DNA of 64,000 nt from Acidobacteriota bacterium (GTDB lineage Bacteria; Acidobacteriota; Terriglobia; UBA7540), in assembly GCA_902812415.1 (NCBI GenBank), contig CADDZJ010000008.1, positions 1 to 64,000 of the forward strand, given 5' to 3'. Both the position numbers and the translations under genes were made by a program. The stretch's first letter is position 1; every line of letters begins with the position of its first letter. Under the pieces are notes generated by a model. It saw only the letters and a program-made list of their open reading frames with translations, had not been told where the DNA came from and ran no database searches. This document shows positions 55,838-62,660 of this stretch, piece by piece.

Positions 55838-56214
55838 ATTCATTGGTGAGCTGGGTGGGACCATAAAGTTTTTGTGAATGATGCGCGCGGAACCGATGAA
55901 CCCATCTTCTATATCCGAAGCATCGACTCAAAGATTCGCGCGCGTCACTCTATTCCCATCCGAGTTACGCAGCGAGGCTTGCACATTCTGTAAGCGATGA
56001 GGATCTTCCTGCGATTTCCCACCCCGTGTCCACATGCGTTGCTTCTTTTACCTGCTTTCAGAACCCAACTTGGCCCTGATTCTCGCGCAAGAAGAGCTCT
56101 GCTTTTGAAGAGGGATTCTGCGCTCCAGCCCTGTGGTGTATCGGCATTGCATTCCAGCTAGCCAGGAAAGGTCTGCTATATTAACAGTCGGATTTGCTTC
56201 GGGAGCGCTTCCGA
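55838..56214. other. Intergenic region (377 bp)
   Basis: It separates the VWFA-related gene from kch. Open frames are short; one of 39 codons from 55878 has no protein-like features. No RNA gene, repeat copy or clear promoter is recognised. Confidence 0.4.
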
Positions 56215-57441
56215 ATGCCTGAGGAGAAAAACGTTCAATGGGCCGTGCATCCCGGCCGCTGGGCGCGCTTCAAGCGCCTGACCCGGCGAGTGGGGAGCGC
56301 GGTTCGGGCGCATTACTGGTTCCCGCACATCCCGCTCTCTCTGGCGCTCGCTTGCGCGGGACTCCTGCTGCTTTGGATCATTTTCACGCTGCAACGGCGC
56401 GTTCTACTCTCAGATTTTCCCAGGCACATCTTTGATTTTCGCCCCTCCAGCATGCCTTACGTCCTGATTGGCGTTGCCATGCTTATTATGTCTGTGGGCC
56501 TGCTCTTCCGCTCCCGGTTTGCCTGGATTATTGCCATTCTTCTAACCGCTTCCACCATTCTGAGCGCCATCATCATTGGGCGTTCGCATCATCGATTTCT
56601 TACCTACTATGATGGAATCCTGCTGGCGGCGCTCCTGCTCTCTTACCGCTGGTTTGACCGCAGCAGCCTGGCGGCAGGGACCTTGTTCGCTGTTACCAGC
56701 GCCTTGCTGCTCCTGATCTATGCCGTCTTTGGCAGTCTTTACTTTGGCGATCAGTTTTCACCCCCCGTCAAAGACCTCGTAACGGCTTTTTACTTTGCCG
56801 TGGTCACGATGGGAACGGTAGGCTACGGCGACATCACCCCCAAAGCCCCTGAAGCGCGGCTGTTTACGGTTTCTGTTATTGTCCTCGGCCTGGCCGTGTT
56901 TGCGACTTCCGTCACGGCCATTGCAGGGCCCATGATCGCACGCCTGACAACGCGGAAGGAGAAGCGAATGAAACGCGCGAACCACTTTATCGTGATCGGC
57001 GCAACTCCGCTGGCATACAACACCTATCGGGAGTTCAAAAAGCGCCGTCAAACCGTGACCCTGATCACGCCGCACGCCCCGGCATCGGGCGAAATTGAGC
57101 CCGACGACCTCATCGTAGGCGACGCCAACAGCCTTGAAACTTTGCGCAAAGCCGATGCAGATCAGGCTCAGGCGGTTCTTGCGATGCGCGCCGATGATTC
57201 AGACAATGCCTTCATTGTGCTGGCAGTCAAAGAGCTGAAAGGCCGGGCCAAGACAGTTGTCGCCATCAACGATAGTAAACACATCGAGCGCATCAAGCTT
57301 GTGCAGCCTGATTTCGTCATCGCTCCAGAGGTGCTTGGCGGCGAACTGCTGGCGATGATGCTGAGCGGAGAACCAATTACGGGCGATTTTTTAATGGAAC
57401 GCATTCTGCATTTTGACCGATCACCCGGCCATACATCCTGA
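56215..57441 (+). CDS. kch: Voltage-gated-like potassium channel with TrkA-N/RCK domain (Kch type)
   Basis: A 408-residue inner-membrane channel close in layout to E. coli Kch (417). Hydrophobic segments in the first 230 residues build the membrane part. The pore contains the K+ selectivity filter in TAFYFAVVTMGTVGYGDITP, followed by ARLFTVSVIVLGLAVFATSV, matching Kch block for block. A cytoplasmic RCK/TrkA-N domain (HFIVIGATPLAYNTYREFKK onward, with VGDANSLETLRKADADQAQA and AMRADDSDNAFIVLAVKELK) ends near the ILHFDRSPGHTS C-terminus. ATG 56215 is chosen because GGGAGC lies 8 bases upstream; a TTG at 56194 is less likely. Probably regulates membrane potential. Confidence 0.93.
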   Translation: MPEEKNVQWAVHPGRWARFKRLTRRVGSAVRAHYWFPHIPLSLALACAGLLLLWIIFTLQRRVLLSDFPRHIFDFRPSSMPYVLIGVAMLIMSVGLLFRSRFAWIIAILLTASTILSAIIIGRSHHRFLTYYDGILLAALLLSYRWFDRSSLAAGTLFAVTSALLLLIYAVFGSLYFGDQFSPPVKDLVTAFYFAVVTMGTVGYGDITPKAPEARLFTVSVIVLGLAVFATSVTAIAGPMIARLTTRKEKRMKRANHFIVIGATPLAYNTYREFKKRRQTVTLITPHAPASGEIEPDDLIVGDANSLETLRKADADQAQAVLAMRADDSDNAFIVLAVKELKGRAKTVVAINDSKHIERIKLVQPDFVIAPEVLGGELLAMMLSGEPITGDFLMERILHFDRSPGHTS

Positions 57442-57506: not shown

Positions 57507-57530
57507 TATAATCATCTTTACAAATTTGTA
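57507..57530 (+). promoter_or_regulatory. Promoter -10 with a perfect palindrome at the start site of the iron-transport operon
   Basis: TATAAT (57507-57512) is followed 6 bases later by TACAAATTTGTA (57519-57530), a 12-bp perfect palindrome covering the expected +1. The -35 is weak (TGGCGG at 57484-57489), suggesting an activator-dependent or repressed promoter. The position is that of a repressor operator for the FTR1 operon; the regulator is not proven. Confidence 0.5.
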
Positions 57531-57609
57531 GAGATTTGATGAAATAGTCGACTAGCAACGTATAAGTCTCTATTTTTCAATCCTTTTAACGCTTGTTGCC
57601 GGACTTCTG

Positions 57610-58884
57610 ATGTTCGATTCCCTGGTCATCACGTTGCGTGAGGGCGTTGAAGCAGCCCTTATCGTCGGCATCGTCGCGGGCTATCTCCGCAAAACCGGAC
57701 GGTCGCATCTCATTCGATTTGTCTATTGGGGATTGGCGGTCGCGGTCGTAGCAAGCTGCATTGCCGGCTACTTTGTGGACCGGCTGCGCATCACCGAGGA
57801 TGCCTATGAAGGCTGGCTGATGCTGGTCGGGGCAGTCTTTGTGGCTTCGGTGGTGATTTGGATGTACAAGACGGCACGCCACATGCGCCGTGAAATTGAA
57901 GAAAAGCTTGCCAGCCTTGCTCAACAGATGGATCGCAGCGCCGCGTGGGGCATCTTCCTGTTTGTCTTCCTCATGGTCTTTCGAGAGGGCATCGAGACGG
58001 TGCTCTTTCTGGCCGCGGTTTCGTTCAATACGACGGAACTGATGAATTTCATGGGCGGCATTATTGGCCTGGCTCTCGCGGTGGGCCTCGGGATCGCGTT
58101 CTTCAAGGGCAGCCTGAAGGTCAATCTGCGCAAGTTCTTCAATGTCACGACGCTGGTGCTGCTGGTGGTGGCTTTGCAGCTTTTCGTTTCCGGCATCCAC
58201 GAACTCTCGGAAGCCATGGTGATCCCTGCAAGCCGCCGCGAGATGGCGCTTGTCGGACCTATTGTGAATAACGACGCCTTCTTTTTTGTAGTCATCATCG
58301 CCCTCTGCCTTTTCCTGATCATCGCCCAGAAGATACAGGGCGCGGTGAAAACAGAGGCGCAACTTGCGAGTTTGCCTGCGCCGGAGCGGCGCAAGACCCT
58401 GGCCGAGCAGCGTCGGCAGGCTTTCTGGAAAACGGCAGCCAGCGCCGTCGGTTTGCTCATCATCGTGCTCATCAGCGCGGAGTTCATTTATTCGCGCGTG
58501 GCTCAGGCTGTGACTCCCCCGGAGCCGCTGAAACTGGTTGAGGGCAAGGCGCAGATTCCGGCCTCGGAGCTTGCCGACCACAAGCTTCACCATTATGTTG
58601 TGAATGTCGATGGAGTTGACGTCCGGCTGATTGCCATCCTGGACGCCTCGAAAGTGGTGCACGTGGCGCTTGACGCCTGCCCGATCTGCGGCACACAAGG
58701 GTATTACCAGAATGGCCGCAACGTCATCTGCCGCAATTGTTCGGCTGCCATCTACGTCCCGACCATCGGCCTGCATGGCGGCTGCAATCCCATTCCCATC
58801 CATTTCCGCTATGAGAATGGAGCGCCCTCCATCACCGTTCCGCAGAGCGCCCTGGAGGAGGCGGCGAAGGTGTTTCGGGAATAA
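57610..58884 (+). CDS. FTR1-family iron permease fused to a DUF2318 (Fe-S-like) domain
   Basis: A 424-residue inner-membrane protein. The N-terminal half is an FTR1/EfeU permease with two REGxE motifs for iron transport (REGVEA at residues 10-15 and REGIET at 125-130) and six or seven transmembrane helices. A last helix (about 277-297) leads to a periplasmic domain with Cys in ACPICGTQGYYQNGRNVICR and NCSAAIYVPTIGLHGGCNPI (Cys357, 360, 374, 377 and 392), the DUF2318 signature. In other bacteria these two parts are separate genes of an iron-uptake operon. It starts the operon with two FtsX permeases and an ABC ATPase. Confidence 0.92.
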   Translation: MFDSLVITLREGVEAALIVGIVAGYLRKTGRSHLIRFVYWGLAVAVVASCIAGYFVDRLRITEDAYEGWLMLVGAVFVASVVIWMYKTARHMRREIEEKLASLAQQMDRSAAWGIFLFVFLMVFREGIETVLFLAAVSFNTTELMNFMGGIIGLALAVGLGIAFFKGSLKVNLRKFFNVTTLVLLVVALQLFVSGIHELSEAMVIPASRREMALVGPIVNNDAFFFVVIIALCLFLIIAQKIQGAVKTEAQLASLPAPERRKTLAEQRRQAFWKTAASAVGLLIIVLISAEFIYSRVAQAVTPPEPLKLVEGKAQIPASELADHKLHHYVVNVDGVDVRLIAILDASKVVHVALDACPICGTQGYYQNGRNVICRNCSAAIYVPTIGLHGGCNPIPIHFRYENGAPSITVPQSALEEAAKVFRE

Positions 58885-59016: not shown

Positions 59017-60285
59017 ATGATTCGTCGCATCATCAGTCAATCGCTTATGCGCCGGCGGGAGCGCAAGCTCCTGAGCCTGATTGCCGTGACGCTCGGCATC
59101 GCTGTGGCGACCGCCGTGGCGACCATCGCCATCGACGTGGGCGACAAGGTGAATCACGAGCTACGTTCGGTCGGCACCAACATCATCGTCACCCCCGCCG
59201 CCGATGGTTTCCCAATTTCAATCGGCGGGGTGGACTTTCGCCCCGCCGGGGCAGGCGCCTATCTGGCGGAATCCTCTCTGCCCGCTATGAAGAAGATTTT
59301 CTGGCGCAATAGCATTGTGGCTTTTGCGCCCTTTGTTTATCTCCCCGCTCAAGCCCACAACCGGCATTTTGTGCTGATCGGAACCTGGTTTGACAAGACC
59401 CTCTCGATCTCGCCGACCGAATCGTTCCAAACCGGAATCAGGCAACTCCATCCTACCTGGAAAGTTGAGGGCAACTGGCCTGCGGCCAACGACGCGGACG
59501 GATGCGTGGTAGGCTCGCAGCTTGCACGGGCGCTCGGCTTGAAAATAGGCCAGACGCTTTCCATCCAGGCAAAGACAGGTCTCAGAGAATTCAAGATTCG
59601 CGGCATTCTCGAAAGCGGAGGCATTGAGGATCAGGAAGCGCTGGCGCCGCTTGAATCCGTTCAGGAAATGGCCGGGTTTCAAGGCAAGGTGCGCCGCGTG
59701 GAAATAAGCGCGGTGACGAAGCCTGAAGACGACCTGGCGCGGATTCCGCCGGCGCGCATGACGCCGGATCAGTTTGAACGCTGGAGTTGCTCGAATTATG
59801 CCAGCACCGTGGCTTACCAGATTCAGCAGGCCATTCCAGGCTCTTCCGCACGTCCTGTCTACCGGGTCTCTGAAACCGAGGGCAAGATTCTGAATCGCGT
59901 GGGCTTGCTCATCAGCCTGCTGGCCGCGGCCGCGTTAATTACAGCGGCCTTGGCTGTCTCTTCCATGATGCTGGCCAACGTGCTGGAGCGCCGATCGGAG
60001 ATCGGTCTCTTTAGAGCCTTAGGCGCGGCGGATGCGCGCGTCGCAACCATTTTCCTGACCGAAGCCTCGCTGGTCGGCCTCGCTGGTGGAGCGCTGGGCT
60101 ATCTTCTGGGCAGTGTGCTTGCTGAGAAGCTGGCCCGGGCCATTTTCGGCTCGCCGATCGGAATTCACTGGGTGCTTCTGCCCGCAGCCCTGACGCTGGC
60201 GCTTGCCGTTACACTGATTGGCGGCGCGCTGCCACTCAGGCGCGGATTCAAAATGTCAACCGCAATGGCTTTGCGCGGCGAATAA
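59017..60285 (+). CDS. FtsX-family ABC permease (1) of the iron-linked transporter
   Basis: A 422-residue MacB/FtsX-type permease: an N-terminal helix (LLSLIAVTLGIAVATAVATI), a large periplasmic domain (about 50-275) and three C-terminal helices with GLLISLLAAAALITAALAVS, then MLANVLERRSEIGLFRALGA and GFKMSTAMALRGE at the end. It differs from the drug-type MacB at 4736 and resembles Cj1661/Cj1662-like permeases found with FTR1/P19 systems. It is encoded after a repeat that separates it from the FTR1 gene, and 24 bp before the second permease. Confidence 0.9.
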   Translation: MIRRIISQSLMRRRERKLLSLIAVTLGIAVATAVATIAIDVGDKVNHELRSVGTNIIVTPAADGFPISIGGVDFRPAGAGAYLAESSLPAMKKIFWRNSIVAFAPFVYLPAQAHNRHFVLIGTWFDKTLSISPTESFQTGIRQLHPTWKVEGNWPAANDADGCVVGSQLARALGLKIGQTLSIQAKTGLREFKIRGILESGGIEDQEALAPLESVQEMAGFQGKVRRVEISAVTKPEDDLARIPPARMTPDQFERWSCSNYASTVAYQIQQAIPGSSARPVYRVSETEGKILNRVGLLISLLAAAALITAALAVSSMMLANVLERRSEIGLFRALGAADARVATIFLTEASLVGLAGGALGYLLGSVLAEKLARAIFGSPIGIHWVLLPAALTLALAVTLIGGALPLRRGFKMSTAMALRGE

Positions 60286-60309: not shown

Positions 60310-61533
60310 ATGCCCATTTCGACCCAGAAACCCCGCAACCCGCGCTCTATTTTCTGGCGGCTGTGCCTGCGCTCGCTCCAGGTGAAACGCCCCCAAGCAG
60401 CCTTGGGCATTGGCTCGCTCATGGTGGGCGCGGCTGTGTGTTCGCTGCTGCTCAATCTTTACGGCGGCGTTCAGCGCAAGATGACGGAATCGTTCAGCGC
60501 GTTTGGCGCAAACGTCATCCTGGCCTCACGGGAAGCTGCCGCGCATTCAAGTGATCTGCCGACCGTCATGCCGGAACCTTCGCCGCAGCGTCTTGAAGCC
60601 TTGCGCCGAGAGCAACCTTCCATCCTCACCGTTCCCGTGCTCTATGTCATCATGCGGCTTAACTCGCTCGCCCCGGATTCCCGTCTTCCTGAGGGAGAAG
60701 AAGTGGTGGCGGTGGGCACAAAGCTGGATGCGATCTCGGCCATGAATCCCAACTGGCGCTTCCAGAGCCTGAGCCAGGACTTAGGACCGCGCGATTGCAC
60801 CGTGGGCATTCATCTGGCCGAAGTTATGCAATTCCATTTGGGCGATCTCCTCCGGTTGCAAACCCTCGAAAAGGGTTCCGGGCAGGATCAACCCGCGCGA
60901 GAAACCTTCCGCATTGCAACAATTGTTTCGACGGGCGCCTCGGAAGATGATCAGGTTTTTGTTCCGCTCCCAGCCTTACAGCAAATGGCAGGATTGGAAG
61001 GGAAAGTGAGCGTAATAGAATTGCGCGTGCCCGGGGACGTTAAAACCATTGAAAGCGCAGTTCGCCAGCTTGCGAAGTTGTTTCCGGAAATGGACGCGCG
61101 GCCCGTGCGGCAGATCGTATATTCTGAAGCGAAGGTCCTCGGCACCGTCAGCCGCTTGATGCTGGCGCTCACGGCTCTGATCCTTACCATCATTGCCTTG
61201 TGTGTGGCGTCCACGATGACGGCCATTGTCCTCGAGCGTCGCAAGGATATCGCCGTGATGAAAGCGCTCGGGGCAAGCAACCGCGCGGTGATGGAGATCT
61301 TCGTAAGCGAGGGCGTGGCGCTGGGATTGATTGGCGGCTTGGCCGGCTTCTTTGTGGGCGCGCTGTTCGCCCGGGAGATTGCATTGCGGCTATTCGAAGT
61401 GGCGCTTGCGCCGAGTTGGTGGGTGTTTCCGGTGGTGTGCCTGTCAACCATCATTCTGGCGGTCGTCGCCACGCTCTTTCCGGTGCGCGTTGTGCGACGC
61501 ATCCAGCCAGCCGTTGTGTTGAAGGGAGCTTGA
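60310..61533 (+). CDS. FtsX-family ABC permease (2) of the iron-linked transporter
   Basis: A 407-residue paralogue of the first permease (FWRLCLRSLQVKRPQAALGI, one N-terminal helix, a periplasmic domain, then MLALTALILTIIALCVASTM, TAIVLERRKDIAVMKALGAS and a final RIQPAVVLKGA). The two would form a heterodimer. Start at 60310; no strong Shine-Dalgarno. The periplasmic domain differs between the two, consistent with binding a small asymmetric partner or metal-loaded protein. Confidence 0.9.
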   Translation: MPISTQKPRNPRSIFWRLCLRSLQVKRPQAALGIGSLMVGAAVCSLLLNLYGGVQRKMTESFSAFGANVILASREAAAHSSDLPTVMPEPSPQRLEALRREQPSILTVPVLYVIMRLNSLAPDSRLPEGEEVVAVGTKLDAISAMNPNWRFQSLSQDLGPRDCTVGIHLAEVMQFHLGDLLRLQTLEKGSGQDQPARETFRIATIVSTGASEDDQVFVPLPALQQMAGLEGKVSVIELRVPGDVKTIESAVRQLAKLFPEMDARPVRQIVYSEAKVLGTVSRLMLALTALILTIIALCVASTMTAIVLERRKDIAVMKALGASNRAVMEIFVSEGVALGLIGGLAGFFVGALFAREIALRLFEVALAPSWWVFPVVCLSTIILAVVATLFPVRVVRRIQPAVVLKGA

Positions 61534-61583: not shown

Positions 61584-62660
61584 TTGCCTTTTATCAACGT
61601 TCAAGGACTGACGAAGCAATACGGGTCATCCATCTACGCGTTGCATGATGTCTCGCTCGCGGTCGAGCGGGGCGAGTGGGTAGCAGTGATGGGGCCATCC
61701 GGCTCCGGCAAGTCCACGCTGCTCAATATCCTGGGCTGCCTGGATTCTCCCACTCAGGGCGAGATTATCATCGACGGCCAGAAACTCAGCCATCTTTCCA
61801 AGGTTGATCTGGCGCGATTTCGCGCTGAAAAATTGGGATTCATCTTTCAGCAGTTTCATCTGGTTCCCTACCTGACGGCAATCGAAAATGTGATGCTGGC
61901 GCAATACTTCCATAGCCTTGCGGAAGAGAAAGAGGCCGCCGAAGCGCTACGGCGCGTGGGATTGGGTAACCGCCTGCACCACCTTCCTTCTCAGCTTTCC
62001 GGCGGCGAACAGCAGCGGGTATGTGTGGCGCGCGCGCTCATCAATCAACCCAACCTGATTCTGGCGGACGAACCCACCGGCAACCTCGACGAAGTCAACG
62101 AGGCGCTGGTGATGGGCCTGCTGGCCGATTTGCACCGCGAGGGACACACCATCCTGATGGTGACGCACGATCCGGAAATTGGCCGCATGGCCGAGCGCCG
62201 CGTGAATCTTCACCACGGCAGGCTCACGGAAGTCTCTGCCGCTCCGATCCAGGAAGATCTTCTCGTGGACAATCTGCTCCAGGCTGTCTGGAGGGCGGAG
62301 GAGGCTGCCGGAGAGAGATTTCTCCCTGCGGACAGGCTGCGGGAATTTATGACCAATCGTGCCACTTTCCTGCTGATGGCGAAGGAAGGTTCGATCAGTC
62401 TGGAGGGCGGGTTGATCTCCCTGACGCCCTCGGGGCAGAGGCGCGCCGACCAGTTGATTCGGCGGCACCGCCTCGCCGAACGATTTTTCTACGAGACCTT
62501 CGGCCTGGATGAAGATCGCCTGCACGAGAATGCGCTCCGCGTTGAGCCGCTCTGGACCGCGCCCGTCACCGATAAGATTTGCACGTTCCTGAATCACCCT
62601 CGCACCTGCCCGCATGGCGACCCAATTCCCATTGGCGACTGCTGCCTGAAAAGCCAGTAG
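61584..62660 (+). CDS. ABC transporter ATPase fused to a DtxR/MntR-like metal-responsive domain
   Basis: A 358-residue protein starting with TTG (GGAG nine bases upstream). Residues 1-220 are a full MacB/LolD-type ATPase: Walker A GPSGSGKST (37-45), signature LSGGEQQR (138-145), Walker B and D-loop [12 protein letters not shown] (158-169), His195. Residues 221-358 match DtxR/MntR regulators: a winged-helix part (LLQAVWRAEEAAGERFLPAD onward, LISLTPSGQRRADQL) and a dimerisation/metal domain (RRHRLAERFFYETFGLDEDR, LHENALRVEPLW, TCPHGDPIPIGDCC). Relative to IdeR, the ancillary metal residues His79, Glu83 and His98 are kept (His295, Glu299, His314) and Glu105 is Glu321, but Cys102 and His106 are replaced (Leu318, Pro322). 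Likely couples metal status to transport. Confidence 0.88.
   Translation: MPFINVQGLTKQYGSSIYALHDVSLAVERGEWVAVMGPSGSGKSTLLNILGCLDSPTQGEIIIDGQKLSHLSKVDLARFRAEKLGFIFQQFHLVPYLTAIENVMLAQYFHSLAEEKEAAEALRRVGLGNRLHHLPSQLSGGEQQRVCVARALINQPNLILADEPTGNLDEVNEALVMGLLADLHREGHTILMVTHDPEIGRMAERRVNLHHGRLTEVSAAPIQEDLLVDNLLQAVWRAEEAAGERFLPADRLREFMTNRATFLLMAKEGSISLEGGLISLTPSGQRRADQLIRRHRLAERFFYETFGLDEDRLHENALRVEPLWTAPVTDKICTFLNHPRTCPHGDPIPIGDCCLKSQ

Follow-up and report, generated by a model that had tools for sequence, protein, structure and literature searches.

What a DtxR-type metal-sensor fold does on the ATPase of an iron-uptake operon is the question raised by the window, by which we mean the whole 64,000-nucleotide stretch of a contig from a soil-type Acidobacterium that was analysed. 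To our knowledge, accounts of how iron controls bacterial iron uptake deal almost entirely with gene regulation (Fur, DtxR). An uptake ATPase that carries a DtxR sensor domain without its detectable DNA-binding signature, in a conserved fusion, would be a direct, built-in feedback valve. The original prediction had proposed an ABC ATPase whose activity is tuned by metal binding or, alternatively, a moonlighting transporter and repressor. Our analysis partly supports it: metal tuning emerges as the best reading of the fusion, whereas the repressor reading is disfavoured by domain profiles.

Architecture of the fusion protein

As predicted, the window protein combines, in one reading frame, an ABC ATPase of the MacB/LolD type and a DtxR metal-binding/dimerisation domain (Table 1). 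Its open reading frame starts with TTG, contains no internal stop, and includes matches to both domain families. The ABC_tran match covers residues 20-165, and the ATPase proposed for residues 1-220 is complete: it contains Walker A (GPSGSGKST), the signature motif (LSGGEQQRV), Walker B (ILADEPTG), and the switch histidine His195, and its key positions are invariant in 31/31 fusions compared. The best NCBIfam matches of this part were LolD (E 6.5e-66) and MacB, both scoring below the curated cut-offs, so the ATPase is not LolD itself; by structure it matches MacB and MJ0796. The complete motifs, together with the two FtsX genes directly upstream, place it among the MacB/LolD-type ATPases.

Table 1. 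Features of the iron operon and of the fusion protein in the window.
Feature	Position	Strand	Basis or remark
18-bp near-palindrome CTTTACAAATTTGTAGAG	57516..57533		upstream of window operon; possible operator
FTR1 iron permease fused to periplasmic FtrD-like (DUF2318) domain	57610..58884	+	PF03239 E 2.6e-39, PF10080 E 6.8e-26
FtsX/MacB-type permease 1 (FetB/FetC-like)	59017..60285	+	PF02687, PF12704; order kept in relatives
FtsX/MacB-type permease 2 (FetB/FetC-like)	60310..61533	+	PF02687, PF12704; order kept in relatives
ABC ATPase - DtxR-domain fusion, 358 aa	61584..62660	+	ORF reading, Pfam, PDB sequence search, fused relatives
ATPase part, residues 1-220	61584..62243	+	PF00005 E 2.2e-36
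Degenerate winged helix, residues 221-280	62244..62423	+	fold predicted; PF01325 match absent
DtxR metal-binding/dimerisation domain, residues 281-349	62424..62630	+	PF02742 E 8.1e-24, IdeR structural match
Four-Cys/His signature: C333, C342-P-H344-G, PIP-x-G-x-C353-C354	62580..62645	+	invariance in relatives

The Fe_dep_repr_C (PF02742) match lies above the curated cut-off, and a profile search of the genome returned the same interval. Compared with PDB sequences, residues 221-358 matched IdeR at E 2.4e-13, and a predicted model of residues 215-358 (AlphaFold, 48-row alignment; pLDDT 94.9) agrees with IdeR/DtxR structures at a TM of about 0.75, which bears out the expected fold. The full-length model is good at the level of single domains (pLDDT 86.9), and its pTM of 0.61 makes the relative placement of the two domains uncertain. 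The window protein stops five residues past Cys353 and has no C-terminal SH3/FeoA domain.

The winged helix also claimed for residues 221-358 fared less well than the metal domain. The profile of the DtxR N-terminal DNA-binding winged helix (Fe_dep_repress, PF01325), proposed as a check alongside the other two, found no match in the window protein, which is why we describe this segment as a degenerate wHTH. We compared the domain in 48 relatives (26 fused and 22 unfused) and used 18 ordinary DtxR/MntR-like proteins of Acidobacteriota as controls. PF02742 matched 48/48 relatives, whereas PF01325 was significant in 0/48 (sub-threshold in 3/48, best E 0.01) and was found in 18/18 controls (best E 4.5e-21). 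The HTH region is also the least conserved part of the fused set: its mean majority identity is 0.39, while helix 4 reaches 0.74 and the C-terminal part 0.81; the HTH of the control proteins stands at 0.58. Judged by these profiles, the fusion is not a conventional DtxR repressor, and both results lower the probability of a moonlighting repressor.

Operon and genome context

The FTR1 operon setting was confirmed, with the FTR1-FtrD gene and the two FtsX genes directly upstream of the ATPase gene; the gene 3' of the latter lies on the opposite strand. FTR1, DUF2318, two FtsX permeases, and an ATPase are thus encoded in one operon, and together they form the core of a Fet (P19-type) cluster. The iron operon is directly preceded, on its own strand, by a gene for a TrkA_N-domain potassium-channel-like protein (56194-57441).

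A profile search of the source genome found a single PF02742 protein, the fusion itself, and the genome encodes one Fur. Neither FeoB nor P19/FetP (PF10634) was matched in this genome, which is about 96% complete, so the absence of both is probable rather than certain.

Distribution and apparent loss of the fusion

The survey of genomes suggested at the outset recovered the in-frame fusion from about 40 loci in many families across the Acidobacteriota. The total is approximate because its two sources partly overlap: about 20 genomes of the family and class of the window have the same fusion in the same gene order, and the fusion occurs in 32 of the best 80 loci of a named genome collection, all 32 being Acidobacteriota records (subdivisions 1, 2, 3, 13, and others). 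Among named records, a MAG of Acidobacteria subdivision 13 is nearest. The order FTR1-FtrD, FtsX, FtsX, and ABC-DtxR holds in all fused relatives with a contig long enough to show it.

Of 247 genomes sampled evenly over the phylum and tallied by hand from two tables, 37 encode an FTR1-FtrD fused protein. A DtxR-type C-terminal domain lies on the same contig, about 3-4 kb away, in 18 of the 37; one further genome (G230) has a strongly diverged ABC-DtxR fusion; in three, the contig ends too early; and G045 and 14 genomes of genus g34 (family f10) gave no domain match beside the FTR1 operon. Five of these domain-less FTR1 loci were read directly, and the ATPase was unfused in all five. The diverged fusion of G230 (L118) has KRKRLAE in place of RRHRLAE, shifted Cys positions, and a long branch, and at another locus (L028, 1266-1672, in G022) an otherwise intact fusion has a frameshift in the DtxR part, due to either sequencing error or decay.

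In the ATPase tree, which was obtained by a short search and has several weak branches, the unfused g34 genes are nested inside the fused ones, so a single loss of the DtxR domain in genus g34 is the simplest reading. Since this genus has kept the operon with a plain ATPase, the DtxR domain looks like a modulatory part of the enzyme. The g34 loci L113-L116 (G247, G128, G086, and G145) contain the same operon with an unfused ATPase and also lack the upstream box described below.

A four-cysteine branch of DtxR-like proteins

The best loci that are not fusions mostly encode a stand-alone domain followed by FeoA, and they come from Nitrospirota, 'Deltaproteobacteria', Deferribacterota, Calditrichota, Krumholzibacteriota, and one archaeal MAG. 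FeoB adjoins these DtxR-FeoA genes in 22/47 loci from the list of best loci, and one locus (L097) has the order FeoB, DtxR-FeoA, FTR1. Among the relatives compared, the FeoA domain was found in the unfused proteins only and never in fusions. The tree unites fused and unfused members in a single branch with full support and separates them from ordinary MntR-like proteins. Relations inside this branch are not fully resolved, and a single origin of the fusion is therefore likely rather than proven.

The cysteines at positions 333, 342, 353, and 354 of the window protein are invariant in 48/48 relatives, and H344 is kept in 46/48. Three of them (C342, C353, and C354) had been taken for extra cysteines and Cys333 had been missed; their invariance makes them the signature of the branch. 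Of the classical ligand positions, in IdeR numbering, the equivalents of R80, E83, and E105 are kept in 48/48 relatives and that of H79 in 46/48, and the window positions H295, R296, E299, and E321 are (near-)invariant. The residue numbers given originally were correct, and of the ancillary ligands named there, H295 and E299 are conserved in relatives, whereas H314, at the H98 position, varies (H/E/D/A).

The window protein itself keeps the equivalents of H79, E83, H98, and E105, and has Leu318 and Pro322 in place of C102 and H106. This replacement, correctly noticed, is not a trait of the fusion: the Cys102 equivalent is kept in 20/26 fused and 22/22 unfused relatives and the His106 equivalent in 23/26 and 22/22, respectively. 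The double Leu/Pro change occurs in the genus of the window and in L031, which belongs to another genus. Being mainly genus-level, the loss of these two residues was rejected as central to the fusion; without them, at least one classical DtxR site is probably damaged in that genus. On alignment, the conserved chemistry of the branch is the four-Cys/His set together with the H79, E83, and E105 equivalents.

Several unfused members (L042, L046, L049, L097, and others) combine the four invariant Cys with a non-significant PF01325 and often lie beside FeoB; judging from such features, the unfused four-Cys DtxR-FeoA proteins are possibly not transcription factors either. Our literature search found no experimental study of any of them. 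The C-terminal parts of L083, L090, L104, L050, L052, and L065 contain His/Cys-rich lineage insertions, for example HPPEAHDHKPFVNPCH in the wing and HPLACPLADTADCC before helix 1, which may be further metal sites.

Upstream palindromes and transcription

The 18-bp near-palindrome before the window operon was seen in the source genome only and was not found upstream of the operon in relatives of the same genus. A different, 17-bp palindrome, TTGMAANTSANTTKCAA, occurs within 300 bp upstream of the FTR1 gene at 3 or fewer mismatches in 27/45 loci, 12 of them exact, against 0 exact and about 0.7 at 3 or fewer mismatches in base-shuffled upstream controls; these counts are descriptive, as the motif was found on the same loci and near-copies are included. 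The carriers include L040, L031, L020, L021, L050, L083, L090, L091, and L105, with the box up to 160 bp upstream of FTR1. Over the same 300 bp, neither the window and its genus nor the g34 loci have the box.

Eight whole genomes scanned at 1 or fewer mismatches contained 0-3 sites each, and the other genomic copies formed no coherent regulon. Similar boxes precede FeoB in several of the unfused kin, and some of them (ATGAAAATGATTTTCAT and TTGAGAATGATTATCAA) resemble classical Fur boxes. From general knowledge of such boxes, we take the TTGMAANTSANTTKCAA-type box to be a putative Fur-family site. As an operator for the fused DtxR domain it was rejected, because loci with and without the box do not sort by their metal ligands: the box is found in L031, which lacks Cys102/His106, and is missing in L016 and L036, which keep both residues. 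With a Fur-like box before many of these operons, their transcription appears to be handled by a separate regulator.

Proposed function and alternative readings

We propose that a metal-sensing, DtxR-derived domain tunes the ATPase of a FetBCD-like complex that supports iron entry through FTR1, a reading to which we give about even confidence. The fusion would be the ATPase subunit of an ABC complex of two FtsX/MacB-type permeases and a homodimeric ATPase, supporting iron entry via FTR1-FtrD, and its C-terminal domain would be a cytoplasmic metal sensor without a recognisable DNA-binding region. Cytoplasmic Fe2+, another divalent metal, or an Fe-S cluster would bind at H295, E299, E321, and the four-Cys/His positions, of which the four Cys could hold Fe2+, Zn2+, or Fe-S. 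On binding, the two DtxR domains would pair differently across the ATPase dimer, which would tune ATP hydrolysis after translation, most likely as feedback inhibition at high cell iron, with activation possible. Metal binding, the identity of the metal, the pairing, and the sign of the effect are all our inference, and iron is probably the metal sensed. Much of the phylum has retained the fusion, which suggests that iron may throttle the ATPase directly and not through gene control. In favour of a metal gauge we count the complete ATPase motifs, the sensor fold with no detectable DNA-binding domain, the conserved soft metal ligands, the iron-uptake operon, the separate Fur-like box, the apparent loss in one lineage, and the iron-import context of the unfused kin (FeoB, FTR1); against it we count the missing Cys102 and His106 equivalents in the genus of the window.

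A wider version of this proposal, which is tentative and on the whole doubtful, is that the entire DtxR branch left gene regulation and became a post-translational iron gauge, attached to FeoA beside FeoB or to the ATPase of FTR1/Fet systems, with the four invariant Cys and the near-invariant His binding Fe2+ or an Fe-S cluster. Cell iron would then throttle two unrelated iron importers through one sensor.

The alternative that survives best, though we consider it unlikely, makes the domain a module for dimerisation or stability that senses nothing, its four Cys being permanently occupied by a structural Zn2+ or cluster. The invariant Cys set fits a structural site, and dimerisation is a known function of the DtxR C-terminal domain (PF02742 description); however, the classical ligand positions H79, E83, C102, E105, and H106 are also kept in most members, unfused kin adjoin FeoB and FTR1, and g34 apparently dropped the domain and kept the operon.

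Less probable still is a relay in which the Cys-rich tail takes up the iron that FTR1 delivers, or hands electrons or thiols on towards the permeases and FtrD, with no regulation of the ATPase. In favour of such a role, FetBCD of C. jejuni has been proposed to pass reducing power to FetM-mediated uptake (PMC10783030), the FtrD-like family, which is represented in the same operon, has conserved Cys (PMC6083913), and the fusion has its four invariant Cys. The DtxR fold and the ligand positions point instead to sensing, and the g34 operons do without the domain. A further point against the relay is that no structural precedent for one starting from a cytoplasmic domain is known to us.

That the ATPase also binds the promoter of its own operon through the DtxR part is very improbable. 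The predicted wHTH fold is retained, a conserved palindrome precedes many of these operons, and there is no second PF02742 protein in the source genome; the profile and conservation results for the HTH nevertheless speak against DNA binding, the palindrome is missing in the window and its genus yet present in a locus without Cys102/His106, Fur-like boxes of a similar kind also stand before FeoB operons in unfused kin, and the source genome has its own Fur. Finally, an assembly or frame artefact, conceivable in a draft assembly of 261 contigs, is rejected as practically impossible, since the identical in-frame fusion occurs at some 40 loci in other genomes from many families, and the join, as predicted, is real.

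Comparison with known systems

We found no published description of a DtxR-ABC ATPase fusion in the open-access literature, subscription papers being mostly outside the search. Sensor domains on ABC ATPases are already known, and what we rate as new here is a DtxR-type sensor fold in that position. If the proposed metal sensor is real, it would offer a handle on the role of the FetBCD complex, and the finding would mark out, in several phyla, a DtxR branch with four Cys whose genes accompany FeoB and FTR1.

The closest functional models are MetN and ModC, two ABC ATPases in which a C-terminal domain acts as a sensor of the substance transported (PMC10710835). The fusion resembles them in having a sensor-type domain C-terminal to an ABC ATPase, a match in position only; MetN (of MetNI) and ModC have other regulatory folds and belong to another ABC class, and post-translational control is established for them and putative for the fusion. 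Because FtsX/MacB-type transporters do not belong to the importers of the MetN/ModC kind, we speak of 'substrate feedback' by analogy. MacB/LolD/YbbA-type ATPases, in turn, are like the ATPase part of the fusion but lack a DtxR domain.

With IdeR, DtxR, and MntR (e.g. PDB 7b24, 2isy, 1fx7), the fusion shares PF02742, the DtxR fold, and the H79, E83, and E105 equivalents; it differs in having no detectable PF01325, no SH3/FeoA domain, an attached ATPase, and the four invariant Cys, which were not seen in the MntR-like controls. The four-Cys DtxR-FeoA proteins share its four-Cys/His signature, degenerate wHTH, and tree branch, and differ in being stand-alone and carrying a FeoA domain.

At the level of the operon, the counterpart is the P19-type fetMP-fetABCDEF cluster of C. 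jejuni, which likewise encodes an FTR1 permease, DUF2318/FtrD, two FtsX-like permeases, and one ATPase (FetD), and in which deletion of fetA, fetB, fetC, or fetD each weakens growth at low iron (PMC10783030, PMC6083913). The single FTR1-FtrD protein of the window unites the counterparts of FetM and of the DUF2318 portion of FetA. Unlike the C. jejuni system, that of the window has no P19 homologue found in its genome, and its ATPase carries the DtxR-derived domain.
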